DNA of 64,000 nt from Porphyromonas sp. HMSC065F10 (GTDB lineage: Bacteria; Bacteroidota; Bacteroidia; Bacteroidales; Porphyromonadaceae): positions 2,474 to 66,473 of the forward strand of contig NZ_KV793752.1 of the NCBI RefSeq assembly GCF_001808555.1, given 5' to 3'. Each line of letters starts with the position of its first letter. The first letter of the stretch is position 1. The notes under the pieces are model-generated. The model was not told where the DNA came from and did no database searches. It saw only the letters and a program-made list of their open reading frames with translations. Below, piece by piece: positions 7,940 to 22,387 of the stretch. Made by a program: the position numbers and the translations under genes.

Positions 7940-8345
7940 CAGGGGTGACGCATTTGAGTTTCTCGGCTAAGCAAACCGGACCCATAGGGGTCCTCTACTG
8001 GTTAGCCTCTCGTGAGATAACGCTCCTCGACAAAGGACACCCGAAAGGGATTCTTCGTTTTCCACTCTTCACAATGAGTTGAATGCCTTCTGCAGAGCTA
8101 AAATGCGTCTCCGCCCGGAGCCTTCTCCTCACGGGACTGCAGTGCCACCCCTATGGGACCGCAGTGCCACCCCTACGGGACTGCAGTGCCACGCCTACGG
8201 GACTGCAGTGCCATCCCCACGGGACTGCAGTGCCATCCCTACGGGACTGCAGCCTCTCCCACAAGAGAGAAGGATCACCCGGCTGCGTGGCACCTCGGCA
8301 GGGGTGTTTTCTTCTTAGTTGTAAAGCTCAAATGCGTCACCTCTG
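7940..8345. mobile_element. MITE-like element, 406 bp, non-coding
   Basis: Between murF and thrA lies a gene-free block bounded by 19-bp terminal inverted repeats. The left one, at 7940-7958, reads CAGGGGTGACGCATTTGAG; the reverse complement of 8327-8345 differs from it at one position. Directly outside are 10-bp direct repeats, CCTATTTCCT (7930-7939) and CCTATTCCCT (8346-8355), 9 of 10 identical, as expected of a target-site duplication. A degenerate internal copy of the end sequence lies at 8097-8112. Inside are a 22-bp minisatellite (8133-8252) and a hairpin near 7977-8007. No transposase is present, so movement would need one supplied in trans. The layout recalls, from memory, the BrickBuilt MITEs of Porphyromonas gingivalis; sequence identity with them was not tested. 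Confidence 0.8.
8133..8252. repeat. 22-bp minisatellite, five full copies plus a partial
   Basis: Five head-to-tail units start at 8133, 8155, 8177, 8199 and 8221, each exactly 22 bp, followed by a 10-bp partial. The unit begins GGGACTGCAGTGCCAYCCC; its core ACTGCAGT is a perfect palindrome flanked by GG and CC. Variation is limited to a few positions per unit. It lies inside the MITE-like element. Confidence 0.9.
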
Positions 8346-8374
8346 CCTATTCCCTTACCATATGTTGGGGTGTG

Positions 8375-10771
8375 TCACGAGAGTTCGCCCCGGTCGGCAA
8401 TCCTGAGGAGGTCGCCAAAGACACCGAGCGCAGTCACCTCGGCACCCGCTCCCGCCCCGCGGATGACAAAGGGTAAGTCACCATAGCTTTCGGTGTAGAT
8501 CTCGAAGCAGGAGTCCGCACCACTGACCGAGCCGAGGGCGCTCTCGGCAGGAAGGCTTCTGAGACCGCAGGAGAGGTGGGTGGCATCGGTGCCGTCCCCG
8601 ATAGTCAGTTCTCCGACATATCTTAGCACTTCCCCTTGAGAGGTGCTCGAGAGACTCTCGAAGTAGGACTGAGCCTCGTCCAGCCGCTTCATAAAGTCGT
8701 CTGCTGAGCAGTCCCTGAGAGACGATGGAACCAAATTCTCTACTTCAATGTCTGACATCTCTGCCGCGATGCCCACCTCACGTGCGAGGATAAGGAGCTT
8801 GCGTGCCACATCGAGACCATTGAGGTCCTGCCGTGGGTCCGGCTCAGAGTAGCCGAGACGGGCAGCGGAGCGTATCGCCTCCGCATAGGAGGTGCTGTCG
8901 CTGAGTGAGGAGAGGATGTAGCCGAGGGTGCCACTGAAGAGGCCCCTGATGCGGGTGATGCGGTCGCCGGAGAGGTGCAGGAGCCGGAGGTTGTCGATCA
9001 GGGGTAGTCCGGCTCCCACATTGGTCTCATACCTATAAGTCCGCCGGTGATCCCGCAAGATCTCACGCAGCCGGAGGTAGTCGGAGTAGGGACCGGTATT
9101 AGAGATCTTATTGGAGGAGACGAGATCATAGCCCTGCTCGGCGAGCTCGCAGTAGCGAGCAGCGATGGCAGGCGAAGCGGTGTTGTCGATGACGACTACA
9201 TTCTCTAAGTAATTCTCGTCCGCATAGCGGATGATCTCGCGGATCGGGTCGTCGGAGGCGGGGGCGGCAGCCTTTCGCTTCCTCCAGTCGGTACCGATGC
9301 TCTCCTTGTCGAGGAGGAGCTGCCGGCTACTGGCTATGGCGAAGAGACGGAGGTCGACGGCTTTGTCGGAGAGGATCCGCGCCCGCTCTTCGGTCACCCG
9401 GTCGAGGAAGGCGCCCCCGACGGTGCCGTGACCGACACAGGCGATATGGATCCGCTTGGCGTGGGCAAACATCTCCCCGTGGATCACATTGAGTGCCTTC
9501 GGTACCTCTTCGTCACGGACGAGGAGGAAGAGGGTGTCACCGGTGACGGCATTATTGACCAGTAGGGGTGTGATGCCGTTTCGGATAAGGGCGGAGTAGG
9601 GATGGTCAAAGCCGGAGAGGCTGACACCGATGAGGGCAATGACGGAGAGCCCCTTCGTTGCCTCAATCGTGGGGCGGTGGACGTCCCGCTCAAACTCTCG
9701 CCTCAGTGCTGCCACGGCGTGGTCCGCTTCGCTCTCCGCCACGACGAAGCCGACACCGCGCTCCGTCGATCCCTGGGAGATGATCCCGGTGCTGATGCCC
9801 TCGTCCTTGAGGACGGAGAAGATCCTGGCATCAAAGCCGGGGAGCCCCTTCATCTCGTGCCGCTCAAAGTGGATCAGAGCCTTGCCGGAGAGGGCAGCGA
9901 TGGCTCTCGCCTGCCGGGAGGCTGGAAGGAGATGGACGAGCGTCCCCTCTTGTCGGCATCCCTCGGGGCTAAAGGAGTCGAGTATGCGGAGGGGGATCTG
10001 CTTGGCAGCAAGAGGGTCGATCGTCTTGTAGTGGAGGATCTCCGCGCCCAGCTGGGAGAGCTCAGCAGCCTCGGTGTAGGAGAGCTCGGGGATCTTGTGC
10101 GCTGAGAGGACGATGTCGGGGTGAGCGGAGTAGATGCCGTCGATATTGCTGTAGTTGTCAAGCTGAGAGGCATCAAGGAAGTTAGCGAGTAGAGCAGCTG
10201 TGTAGTTGCTTCCATTTCTTCCGAGGGTTGTCCGCACCCCCTCGTTGCTTCGGGCGATGAAGCCGGTCACGATCGGGAGGGTGTCGGCGGGGAGGTGGGC
10301 AAAGTAGCTGCGCGTCTTATCCTCCGACTCCTTGAGCTCCACATTTGCCTCACCATAGGAGTCGTCGGTGACGATGAGTTCGCCGGCGTCGATCGGCAGT
10401 GCGTGAGGTAAGAGACGGGCAATGTGGTGGGCGGAGAAGATTTCCCCAAAGGAGAGGACCTCATCCAGTGTCTTGGCACTGCACTCTCCAAGGAGTTCGA
10501 TCCCCTCGAGGAGCCTGGTAAGTCGATCTGAGAGTCCTTCGGTCCCCTCTCCTTGGTCAGCAAGGAGCCGGTGAAGGCTCTCCCGCCAGGGTTTCCCGGC
10601 TTCGGCGAGGTGAGCCAGCCCAAGGAGACGATCCGTAGTCTTGCCTCGAGCGGAGACGACGACTAAGGGAGGAGTGTCGTCAGCCTCGGCAATTTCTTGG
10701 ATGATATTGAGGGAGAGACGGAGTGGCTCTCCATTAGCGAGGGACTTGCCCCCAAACTTTAGTACACGCAT
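8375..10771 (-). CDS. thrA: bifunctional aspartate kinase/homoserine dehydrogenase
   Basis: Catalyses the first and third steps from aspartate to homoserine, the shared precursor of methionine and threonine. The 798 residues contain an N-terminal kinase domain (KFGGKSLANGEPLRLS; LGRNGSNYTAALLANFLDA near residue 190), paired ACT regulatory domains around 300-460, and a C-terminal dehydrogenase (GHGTVGGAFLDRV Rossmann loop near residue 470; SSNKISNTG; ETNVGAGLPLIDNLR). The fused arrangement follows the E. coli ThrA/MetL order. It is the last gene of the metY-metX-thrA unit, 23 bp after metX. Placement behind a methionine attenuator suggests it mainly serves methionine supply, closer in role to MetL; symbol follows homology. 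Confidence 0.93.
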   Translation of the reverse strand: MRVLKFGGKSLANGEPLRLSLNIIQEIAEADDTPPLVVVSARGKTTDRLLGLAHLAEAGKPWRESLHRLLADQGEGTEGLSDRLTRLLEGIELLGECSAKTLDEVLSFGEIFSAHHIARLLPHALPIDAGELIVTDDSYGEANVELKESEDKTRSYFAHLPADTLPIVTGFIARSNEGVRTTLGRNGSNYTAALLANFLDASQLDNYSNIDGIYSAHPDIVLSAHKIPELSYTEAAELSQLGAEILHYKTIDPLAAKQIPLRILDSFSPEGCRQEGTLVHLLPASRQARAIAALSGKALIHFERHEMKGLPGFDARIFSVLKDEGISTGIISQGSTERGVGFVVAESEADHAVAALRREFERDVHRPTIEATKGLSVIALIGVSLSGFDHPYSALIRNGITPLLVNNAVTGDTLFLLVRDEEVPKALNVIHGEMFAHAKRIHIACVGHGTVGGAFLDRVTEERARILSDKAVDLRLFAIASSRQLLLDKESIGTDWRKRKAAAPASDDPIREIIRYADENYLENVVVIDNTASPAIAARYCELAEQGYDLVSSNKISNTGPYSDYLRLREILRDHRRTYRYETNVGAGLPLIDNLRLLHLSGDRITRIRGLFSGTLGYILSSLSDSTSYAEAIRSAARLGYSEPDPRQDLNGLDVARKLLILAREVGIAAEMSDIEVENLVPSSLRDCSADDFMKRLDEAQSYFESLSSTSQGEVLRYVGELTIGDGTDATHLSCGLRSLPAESALGSVSGADSCFEIYTESYGDLPFVIRGAGAGAEVTALGVFGDLLRIADRGELS

Positions 10772-10794: not shown

Positions 10795-11745
10795 TTAAGG
10801 GAAGAAGGGACTCATGATCCGGCAGAGCTGGTCATACTCGATGAGGAAGGCGTCGTGACCATGGTCGGAGGCGATGGTGTGGAGCTCAGCTCGCTCTTTG
10901 CCGAAGTGCTTGAGTCCCTCGACAGTCTCTTGAGCAACGAAGTAGGGGAAAAGTCGGTCGCTGTCAATGGCGACGAGGTGGATGTCTGAGGCGATCCGTG
11001 ACAGCTCTTCCTCGCTCTCCGCTGCATGGATCGTGGAGGTGAGGAAGGTCATCACCCTGTAGGCACTCAGGCTGAAGCGCCCCTCCAGTGTACGACCATG
11101 GTAGTCGAGCCAATCAATCACCTTGGGGAGTCTACTATCCTCCACCTTTTTTCCCTCAAAGCGTCCGATGAGGGACTTCGGTGTACGGTAGGTGAGCATG
11201 GCGTGGACCCGCGCATCGTGGATGGGGCGGTCGGAGTGCTCCAGTATCAGTCGCTGTACTTCGGTCTGAGCGAGGAGCCAGTCGGAGGCCTTGTAGTCCG
11301 TGGCGATGGGGAAGAGAAGGTCCGCCAGCGTGGGCTCGAGGGTGGCGATCTGCCAAGCGAGACCACCACCGAGACTGGGCCCGATGAGTGCGTAGAGGTG
11401 ATCGACACGGAGCTCCCTCAGCACGAGCAGCCAGAGGCGAGCCACGTCCTTCACATTGAGTAGACGGGGATCATCCAGTGGAGCAGAACCGGCATATTCA
11501 TTTCCCGGGATGTCGATCGAGAGGATGGTGTAGTGGGCAGTGTCGATCGTCTGTCCGAGTCCGATGAGTTTTGCCCACCAGCCCTCCGGACCGGAGACAG
11601 CGGAGTTGCCGGTAAGGGCGTGACAGACAAGCACGATGGGAGTACTGCCGAGGGAGGGTCCCTCCACTTGGTAGGTGAGGGTGATGGAGGGGATACTCTC
11701 GCCTCGCCAATTGGTGAAGTCCGAGAAGGTTACTTGTCCGAGCAT
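10795..11745 (-). CDS. metX: homoserine O-acetyltransferase
   Basis: Activates homoserine for sulfur incorporation. This alpha/beta hydrolase-fold enzyme has 316 residues, somewhat shorter than the usual 340-380. It shows the oxyanion/entry motif VCHALTGNSAV, the nucleophile elbow GPSLGGG with Ser124, Asp262 in IDSDRLFP, and His296 in the C-terminal HGHDAFL. The DWLLAQTEVQR segment is also family-like. The start at 11745 overlaps the 3' end of metY by 16 bp, so translation is probably coupled. Acetyl versus succinyl donor cannot be proven, but the MetX fold and the neighbouring MetY favour acetyl. Confidence 0.92.
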   Translation of the reverse strand: MLGQVTFSDFTNWRGESIPSITLTYQVEGPSLGSTPIVLVCHALTGNSAVSGPEGWWAKLIGLGQTIDTAHYTILSIDIPGNEYAGSAPLDDPRLLNVKDVARLWLLVLRELRVDHLYALIGPSLGGGLAWQIATLEPTLADLLFPIATDYKASDWLLAQTEVQRLILEHSDRPIHDARVHAMLTYRTPKSLIGRFEGKKVEDSRLPKVIDWLDYHGRTLEGRFSLSAYRVMTFLTSTIHAAESEEELSRIASDIHLVAIDSDRLFPYFVAQETVEGLKHFGKERAELHTIASDHGHDAFLIEYDQLCRIMSPFFP

Positions 11746-13031
11746 ATCTGATCGAGTGCGCTTTGTAGATCCTTTTTTAGGTCCTCGATGCTCTCCAGAC
11801 CGATGGAGAGACGTATGAGATCGTCTGAGATGCCGGCCTGGCTGAGCTCGTCCTCGGTCATCTGGCTGTGGGTAGTGCCGGCGGGGTGGGTGATGAGTGA
11901 CTTGCTGTCACCGAGATTGGCAACGAGGGTGAAGAGTTGAGTACTCTCGGTCACCCTGCGAGCTGCGTGATACCCGCCCTTGGGTGCAAAGGTGAGGATA
12001 CCGCCACCAAAACCATGAAGCGAAGTGGTGCAGAGATCATTCTGCTCGTGGGAGGGAAGAGCGGGGTAGCGGACCCAGGCGACCTTAGGATTTGCCTCAA
12101 GCCACTCAGCCAGCTCACGAGTGTGATCACTGATGGCGTGTGCCCTCAGCTCAAGCGTCTCCAGCCCCTTGATCATCTCGTAGGCGTTGAGGGGGCTGAG
12201 CCCGGTGCCGAGATCCCTGAGACCGATGGCTCGAAGTGCCGTGATGAGTGCCTGGGAACCAAAAGTCTCTGTGAAGGAAATGTTATTATAAGTCGGGCAG
12301 GGCTCAGAGAGCTCAGGGAAGCGACCGCTGCCCCAGTCGTACCGACCGGAGTCGATGATCGCACCACCGAGTGTCGTGCCATTGCCGCAGACGATCTTGG
12401 TGAGAGCAGAGGTGAGGACATCGGCTCCCTCGCTGATGGCGTGGCTGATCCCCTCGGTGAGAGTGATGTCAGCCACGAGGGGCAGTCCATGGCGGTGAGC
12501 GACCTCAGATACCACGGGGATATTGGTGATGGTGAGCCGTGGGTTGCTGAGCGTCTCGCAGAATACCAGCTTCGTGCTCTCGGTGATGGCGGCCTCCACT
12601 TCTTCCACATTATTAATGTCTACAAAGGTGGTGGTGATGCCGAAGCGGGGGAGGGTAGACTCCAATAGGTTGAAGGTCCCACCGTAGATGCTATTGGAGG
12701 CGACAACGTGGTCCCCGGATCGGAGCAGGGTGAGGAAGAGTGTGCTGTGGGCACTCTGTCCGGTGGCGGTAACTACTGTACCGACGCCGCCCTCGTATGC
12801 AGCGAGCCGCCTCTCGAGGACATCCACGGTGGGGCTTCCGAGACGGGAGTAGAGGAAGCCCTCCTTGCGGAGTGCAAAAATGTCGATCGCCTCCTGCGAG
12901 TCAGCGAAGGCGTATGCGGTCGAGGCTACCAACGGGACGGACACCGCATGGTGACCCGTGGCAAGAGGATCGTAGCCGTAGTGAAGTGCAATAGTCTCCG
13001 GAGAGTACTTTGGCTGGATAGTGTGTGACAT
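11730..13031 (-). CDS. metY: O-acetylhomoserine aminocarboxypropyltransferase (PLP enzyme)
   Basis: Cys/Met-metabolism PLP enzyme that makes homocysteine from O-acetylhomoserine and sulfide. Its 433 residues match the MetY length better than cystathionine gamma-synthase (about 385). Visible features are YSRLGSPT (phosphate-side tyrosine/arginine), ATGQSAHSTL, SIYGGTFNL and the Schiff-base lysine Lys212 in SALTKIVCGNGTTLGG. The usual VDNTF cofactor motif reads ADITLTEG, a divergence worth noting. It heads the operon with metX and thrA and follows a leader-peptide attenuator (13055-13278). MetB or MetZ activity remains possible. Confidence 0.9.
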   Translation of the reverse strand: MSHTIQPKYSPETIALHYGYDPLATGHHAVSVPLVASTAYAFADSQEAIDIFALRKEGFLYSRLGSPTVDVLERRLAAYEGGVGTVVTATGQSAHSTLFLTLLRSGDHVVASNSIYGGTFNLLESTLPRFGITTTFVDINNVEEVEAAITESTKLVFCETLSNPRLTITNIPVVSEVAHRHGLPLVADITLTEGISHAISEGADVLTSALTKIVCGNGTTLGGAIIDSGRYDWGSGRFPELSEPCPTYNNISFTETFGSQALITALRAIGLRDLGTGLSPLNAYEMIKGLETLELRAHAISDHTRELAEWLEANPKVAWVRYPALPSHEQNDLCTTSLHGFGGGILTFAPKGGYHAARRVTESTQLFTLVANLGDSKSLITHPAGTTHSQMTEDELSQAGISDDLIRLSIGLESIEDLKKDLQSALDQICSDK

Positions 13032-13054
13032 AATGATAGGGTGTAGTGTATGTG

Positions 13055-13108
13055 ATGATAAAAGTGAAGCGAAACCTAACTGAGCTGTTGGCTCGTCGGT
13101 TTCGCCTC
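13055..13108 (-). terminator. attenuator terminator of the metY-metX-thrA operon
   Basis: On the minus-strand RNA, GAGGCGAAACC (13108-13098) pairs with GGTTTCGCTTC (13076-13066), ten Watson-Crick pairs plus one G-U. ACTTTTATC follows. The loop holds a small inner hairpin (GAGC...GCTC). The element lies 24 nt before the metY ATG, so it must be bypassed for expression. A competing pairing with the leader-peptide region is given in the leader entry. Confidence 0.8.
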
Positions 13109-13137
13109 GTGTGTATGAATGTTGACTTCCGAAATTG

Positions 13138-13248
13138 TTATGAGATCAATTGTGGACACGACAGAGCCGACGAGTGTACGCTGTACATTCGCATCATCAT
13201 CAGGGGCAGCATGCTGCTTGGGGATATGATATAGCTCTTTTGTCTCAT
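13138..13248 (-). CDS. methionine-rich leader peptide of the met operon (36 aa)
   Basis: A 36-codon ORF begins about 15 nt after the expected transcription start and stops before the attenuator terminator. It has six Met codons (1, 13, 17, 18, 19, 21), including three in a row, in the segment PLMMMRMYS. Codons 25-31 include CTCGTCGG and TCGTGT, which pair with CCGACGAG (RNA from 13099-13092) and ACACGA (13112-13107). That pairing would disrupt the 5' arm of the terminator. Stalling at the Met codons when charged Met-tRNA is short would leave these segments free. A ribosome reaching the TAA would cover TCGTGT and allow termination. The sequence elements are direct observations; the regulatory model is inference from classical attenuation. 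Confidence 0.8.
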   Translation of the reverse strand: MRQKSYIISPSSMLPLMMMRMYSVHSSALSCPQLIS

Positions 13249-13270
13249 AACACTTGACTTAACAGTGCGA

Positions 13271-13278
13271 CAAAGTTA
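13271..13278 (-). promoter_or_regulatory. met operon promoter, TAACTTTG with -33 TTG
   Basis: On the minus strand TTG (13300-13298), a 19-bp spacer and TAACTTTG (13278-13271) match the Bacteroidetes -33/-7 arrangement. Transcription would begin near 13263, just ahead of the leader-peptide ATG at 13248. Confidence 0.65.
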
Positions 13279-13419
13279 CGAAAATACTTTTATGTAGCAA
13301 ATTTATTTGCGTCTTATTTTTAATGCGGAATAAAATTATATCGTTTTGGTGATTTTTCGGAATATGTTTGTATTGTCTTTGAGGGGGGAATGTCTTGCTC
13401 AAGGTAGAGAAAAATGAGT

Positions 13420-22298: not shown

Positions 22299-22317
22299 AT
22301 GGTTTATTGACTCAAGA

Positions 22318-22374
22318 GTGCCTTTTAGCATTGTTTTAGCGTGGTTGCAAGCAGACACAAATCTCTCCACGTGA
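22318..22374 (-). ncRNA. SAM-II riboswitch (metK leader)
   Basis: On the minus-strand RNA the elements of the SAM-II aptamer appear in order: P1 5' arm CGUGG, conserved GAUUU, UUGCAA, P1 3' arm CCACG, UAAA, and the 3' box GCUAAAAGG. Loop GUGUC (22358-22354) can pair with 3' GGCAC (22322-22318), forming the H-type pseudoknot of the class. The published metX SAM-II RNA has the same order of GAUUU, UUGCAA and GCUAAAAAGG. It lies within about 10 nt of the predicted transcription start and 145 nt before metK. SAM binding should lower downstream expression; the platform is not obvious. Confidence 0.85.
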
Positions 22375-22387
22375 TCTAATATCGGTG

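Follow-up and report, generated by a model that had tools for sequence, protein, structure and literature searches.

A putative methionine leader-peptide attenuator upstream of metY in Porphyromonas, and related leaders in Bacteroidia

The window, a 64-kb stretch of genomic DNA from a species of Porphyromonas, contains on its minus strand a cluster of genes for methionine synthesis, and the leader region described here lies on the same strand, between a pyrE-like gene and metY. The junctions between metY, metX and the thrA-like gene are short or overlapping. The gene order metY-metX-thrA is the same in P. bennonis, the closest match to the genome of the window (MetY 94% identical), and in other members of the family, as well as in G052, metX follows metY and is itself followed by a thrA-like or homoserine-dehydrogenase sequence. 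The genes are as follows.

8375..10771, minus strand: thrA-like gene, fused aspartate kinase/homoserine dehydrogenase, in synteny with relatives
10795..11745, minus strand: metX, homoserine O-acetyltransferase-like, in synteny with relatives
11730..13031, minus strand: metY, O-acetylhomoserine sulfhydrylase, the first gene after the putative attenuator
13462 onward, plus strand: pyrE-like gene, named from its sequence, divergent from metY

The leader region upstream of metY has the following elements.

13298..13301, minus strand: -33 promoter element, TTTG
13271..13278, minus strand: -7 promoter element, TAACTTTG
13138..13248, minus strand: leader peptide ORF of 36 codons, with Met at codons 13, 17, 18, 19 and 21, MRQKSYIISPSSMLPLMMMRMYSVHSSALSCPQLIS
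13186..13200, minus strand: putative sensing codons MMMRM (ATGATGATGCGAATG), also within the 5' half of the protector hairpin
13175..13187, minus strand: small TGTAC-AGC-GTACA stem, 3' of the Met run, TGTACAGCGTACA
13167..13203, minus strand: protector hairpin (1:2), 13203-13191 paired with 13181-13167, -11.9 kcal/mol
13156..13174, minus strand: antiterminator 5' strand (segment 2), blocks CTCGTCGG and TCGTGT
13092..13112, minus strand: 3' strand of the antiterminator (segment 3), sharing bases with the 5' arm of the terminator
13066..13108, minus strand: intrinsic terminator hairpin (3:4), -23.5 kcal/mol
13057..13065, minus strand: short U-tract after the terminator, ACTTTTATC, weaker than in most relatives

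The promoter, TTTG-N19-TAACTTTG, has the TTTG-N19-TAnnTTTG spacing of the Bacteroidetes -33/-7 type, and would place the transcript start at around 13263-13266; the -7 element TACCTTTG is found again upstream of most leaders in relatives. Within the leader, CTCGTCGG (13174-13167) is exactly complementary to CCGACGAG (13099-13092), and TCGTGT (13161-13156) to ACACGA (13112-13107), while the arms of the terminator are GAGGCGAAACC (13108-13098) and GGTTTCGCTTC (13076-13066). The initial annotation of this DNA had described the promoter, the 36-codon ORF and its Met positions, the antiterminator blocks and the terminator, all of which were confirmed base for base, as was its proposal that the antiterminator overlaps the 5' arm of the terminator (13092-13112 versus 13108-13066) so that the two folds exclude each other. 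The small TGTAC stem that it placed just after the Met run is indeed present at 13187-13175, but the best protector is formed by the Met run itself, 13203-13191, with 13181-13167, the latter side including the antiterminator strand. The small stem is an alternative to this pairing, and most relatives are without it; as a pause hairpin we have replaced it with the Met-run protector.

Among ATG-initiated ORFs of 10-60 codons on both strands of the 64 kb, the leader ORF is the only one with at least four Met codons in nine; 2000 dinucleotide-preserving shuffles of the leader never gave that density. In predicted folding energy the leader RNA is 3.1 SD below its shuffles (more stable), and its antiterminator duplex (-24.6 kcal/mol) beats 197 of 200 shuffles, the other three reaching that energy.

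A metY gene of this type is present in 14 of 38 Porphyromonadaceae genomes. In 12 of the 14 it is preceded by a Met-rich leader with terminator and antiterminator, and the Met run is conserved in these; in the other two (G025 and G032) metY is present and no leader was found upstream of it. Examples of the family peptides are MNKNMYMMAMMMQMKFASVVLYA, MKCTTNMMTMMMMQMMSASGHSYL and MIHQSVQMMGMMMRMSMIMFADTLYPKESILIV, and a ATGATGATGCRRATG-like core is common to nearly all of the aligned family leaders. All 13 family leaders are followed by a T-rich stretch after a hairpin whose energy lies between -20.9 and -31.5 kcal/mol, the distance from stop codon to terminator being 19-31 nt in every one but that of P. 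bennonis. In 10 of the 13 the antiterminator duplex beats 95% or more of the post-Met shuffles. In the window and in relatives alike, the Met run or the bases adjoining it pair with segment 2, and the hairpin that corresponds to the protector has compensatory changes in relatives.

Covariation was analysed in an alignment of the seven well-aligned family leaders. The protector, of the GATGCAGA-TGATG-TCTGCATC type, and the terminator have 98.5% of cells paired, and in four of their pairs both partners have changed. The antiterminator has one strand in common with each of these hairpins; 84.7% of its cells are paired, and five of its pairs are changed on both sides. Slid-partner controls on the same alignment gave maxima of 55% and 48%. 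The conserved Met runs and compensatory stem changes that the initial annotation had suggested looking for in relatives were thus found, in protector, terminator and antiterminator alike. Because three overlapping pairings have been kept through sequence change, they are hard to explain without an attenuation mechanism.

Short ORFs and hairpins are common, and a simple scan does not call the terminator of the window, as might be expected if an ATG-repeat ORF lay by chance beside an ordinary hairpin and had no function. However, besides the shuffling result, the leaders are conserved among species whose metY is merely 47-58% identical, and their stems covary. Furthermore, an ORF with four Met in 12 codons was present at only two of 65 further Bacteroidales metY copies; both ORFs lack three Met in a row, and none resembles these leaders. 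A chance origin is already contradicted by these comparisons, and we give it hardly any credence.

Leaders of this kind are not confined to the family. Through the metY survey and a covariance model, R1, built from one subgroup, tandem pairs of leader and terminator were found before metY in G052 and G132, which belong to two further Bacteroidales families, and in the Porphyromonadaceae genome G023; each tandem copy has its own terminator. Order-wide matches of R1 that scored less than about 50 bits proved, once inspected for a Met ORF, to be mostly chance, with the exception of G052; G132 scored 53.9. In the genome of the window R1 yielded no further leader, and it misses the window's own leader as well, because the leaders diverge fast outside the paired blocks. 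The motif ATGATGATGNNNATG was discarded as a search pattern, being too unspecific, with matches in 285 of 295 genomes. As a separate observation, an antiterminator pairing of GGTAATAC with GTATTACC (or of GGCAATAGT with ACTATTGCC) is retained across families at the second terminator of the tandem Met leaders in L136, L153 and L026.

The phylum-wide survey revealed tandem leaders in many Flavobacteriaceae-like genomes (f124, the family being a probable assignment), whose peptides mix Met and Cys, as in MKTIAKRNMMCCKMMQMCIPICCCQK and MKNNNKMCCMMMMCMCAPP. Of 23 further leaders, 15 have an antiterminator that beats 95% or more of the post-Met shuffles, and in all 23 it is better than the shuffle mean. 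When 81 genomes from a single genus were searched with a model of the second f124 leader, pairs of Met-rich leaders were detected before metX; in G729:C1 and G794:C9 (L287 and L288) the tandem Met leaders are upstream of metX, not metY. In a Flavobacterium-like genome, a Cys-rich leader, MSKRIINKMSNCCCAKCCKHSNSLLPYMKT, with a terminator of its own (L284 1501-1593), is the second of a tandem pair before cysH, the PAPS reductase gene, and is likely to be a cysteine attenuator. Met or Met and Cys codons thus occur before metY and metX, and Cys codons before cysH, so that codon content tracks the pathway. A small ORF of about 60 codons lies between the attenuator (the second one in L231) and metY in L231, L238, L243 and L244, and an ORF of similar size follows the attenuator in L285, at 4659.

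The initial annotation had remarked that met genes of Bacteroidetes are more often linked to SAM riboswitches. This agrees with a SAM-II riboswitch (50.2 bits) in the window at 22315-22376 on the minus strand, 142 nt upstream of metK (22172-20874, minus strand), and with SAM-I before metY in leaderless relatives. At the 29 closest metY loci of the phylum survey, a leader lies directly upstream in 18 (one of them, L226, a weak leader with few Met) and SAM-I in 11, no locus having both and none having neither; Fisher's test gives 3e-8, a figure that takes related loci for independent ones and can serve only as a guide. These SAM-I and SAM-II cases, on metY in related bacteria and on metK in the window, would lend some colour to an undescribed riboswitch for SAM, methionine or homocysteine, with the ORF incidental. 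We nevertheless consider that very improbable, because an Rfam scan of 12980-13320 gave no match up to E = 1, including to SAM-I, SAM-II and other riboswitches, and because, apart from the pairings, nothing like a conserved aptamer core is evident, whereas the reading frame and Met codons are conserved and the Met/Cys content varies with the downstream pathway. The T-box model in the same scan had no match at the leader.

In a phylogenetic tree of metY, all 32 leader-bearing genes fall in one supported clade, which also contains most of the SAM-I cases and two leaderless genes. The few sampled metY genes of Phocaeicola, Bacteroides, Ruminococcus and others are outside this clade, and the metY copies of these and other taxa, taken from genome contigs, have no such leader. 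The genes of G052 and G132 cluster with a member of f124, which suggests that metY and its leaders moved together between orders.

In P. bennonis the leader (L031 3787-4023) has AAA in place of the TAA stop codon, and the ORF consequently extends to 78 codons, crossing the terminator and overlapping the first 20 nt of metY. Loss of the ORF or of stem complementarity in a close relative had been named in the initial annotation as evidence against an attenuator; here the Met run and the stems are kept and the stop codon is gone. Either the attenuator of P. bennonis is decaying, or the stop is less important than in the textbook case. The overlap with the metY start is an arrangement suiting translational coupling, and the U-tract of the window is weak, with just four consecutive U, so that a real, regulatory leader ORF might act by such coupling, or by sequestration of the ribosome site, rather than by transcription termination. 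This is improbable, though less so than a riboswitch, because the hairpin of the window stops 34 nt short of metY and that of most relatives is placed 44-66 nt before the gene, because many relatives have long uninterrupted U-tracts after the hairpin, and because each tandem copy is provided with a terminator.

With parts that are mutually exclusive, conserved and covarying, and an operon downstream whose products belong to the pathway, the metY leader is very probably a transcription attenuator mediated by the ribosome and responsive to methionyl-tRNA. Transcription would start near 13265, and a ribosome would begin translation of the 36-codon leader. When Met-tRNA is ample, the ribosome would arrive at the stop codon (13138) and mask segment 2 (13174-13156), whereupon segment 3 would pair with segment 4 and transcription would end at about 13057-13065. 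When Met-tRNA is scarce, the ribosome would stall on codons 17-21 and open the protector hairpin between the Met run and segment 2; because the Met run of the window forms the 5' side of the protector, the stalled ribosome would free segment 2 directly. The freed segment 2 would pair with segment 3 ahead of the synthesis of segment 4 and so pre-empt the terminator, and metY-metX-thrA would then be transcribed, restoring the supply of homoserine, O-acetylhomoserine and homocysteine. Stalling, termination and their dependence on methionine are what we infer from this arrangement.

When the leaders were folded with a ribosome placed on the first Met pair of the run, and with the 3' arm of the terminator still unmade, the antiterminator region paired upstream in every leader (8-22 bases), and with the ribosome at the stop codon the terminator formed. 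At equilibrium the terminator is predicted in all states, even with a stalled ribosome, and antitermination must therefore be kinetic, as is the choice between folds in the trp attenuator. Methionine starvation could also limit initiator tRNA, in which case translation of the leader could cease and termination be favoured; the leader would have to keep initiating while elongation stalls.

Taken across the phylum, the comparisons make it somewhat more probable than not that the sulfur amino acid genes of Bacteroidia have a common family of leader-peptide attenuators, mostly arranged as serial pairs, and that the mixture of Met and Cys codons in the peptides decides what each one senses: Met in Porphyromonadaceae, Met and Cys before metY in Flavobacterium-like genomes, and Cys before cysH. 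Such leaders would swap with SAM-I on the same gene and could travel with metY between orders, and two serial Met/Cys peptides would constitute a logic gate on two charged tRNAs.

Leader-peptide attenuation is textbook knowledge for Trp, His, Leu, Thr, Ilv and Phe, the classical attenuators being those of trp, his, leu, thr, ilv and phe in Proteobacteria and of trp, ilv and leu in Actinobacteria. Methionine genes are otherwise known under the control of SAM riboswitches, T-boxes or repressors, and we know of no described leader-peptide attenuator for methionine. The metY leader resembles the classical attenuators in having a leader ORF that contains codons for the amino acid made by the operon, mutually exclusive protector, antiterminator and terminator, and a biosynthetic operon downstream. 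It differs from them in that methionine, the amino acid putatively sensed, is also the first residue of every peptide, in its Bacteroidetes host, and in that its relatives occur in tandem with mixtures of Met and Cys. SAM-I (S-box) and SAM-II riboswitches are found upstream of the same genes (metY and metK) in the same phylum, but they bind SAM directly, without a peptide, and were not detected at the metY leader.

Bacteroid-trp RNA, as its name indicates, is linked to trp genes. Described as a candidate cis-regulatory RNA of Bacteroidetes (RF01692; Weinberg 2010, PMC2864571), it concerns tryptophan, and the Rfam library that contains it gives no match at the metY leader. A 2021 transcriptome study of the Bacteroidetes fish pathogen F. 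psychrophilum reported strong clues that operons for amino acid biosynthesis are preceded by leader-peptide attenuators, and the predicted attenuators in its main text include no methionine or metY leader (PMC9723704). Leader peptides are also discussed by Naville and Gautheret (PMC2965389) and by Korolev et al. (PMC4833913), with no Met case in the sections concerned. A search of the main texts of open-access articles found no methionine leader peptide.

A methionine attenuator raises the question of how a peptide that needs fMet-tRNA to start can report a shortage of Met. The same gene under a SAM riboswitch in one lineage and under a gauge of tRNA charging in its sister offers a natural comparison of the sensing of a product (SAM) with that of a building block (Met-tRNA), and the tandem Met/Cys leaders make a two-input RNA switch testable. 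Since the window has both SAM-II before metK and the Met leader before metY, the two sensors may divide the pathway, Met-tRNA being sensed for synthesis and SAM for conversion.

Downstream of the thrA-like gene, at 8083-8406 on the plus strand, ORF translations repeat a GLQCHPYGTAV-like motif, and a short tandem or direct DNA repeat therefore probably lies in this segment.
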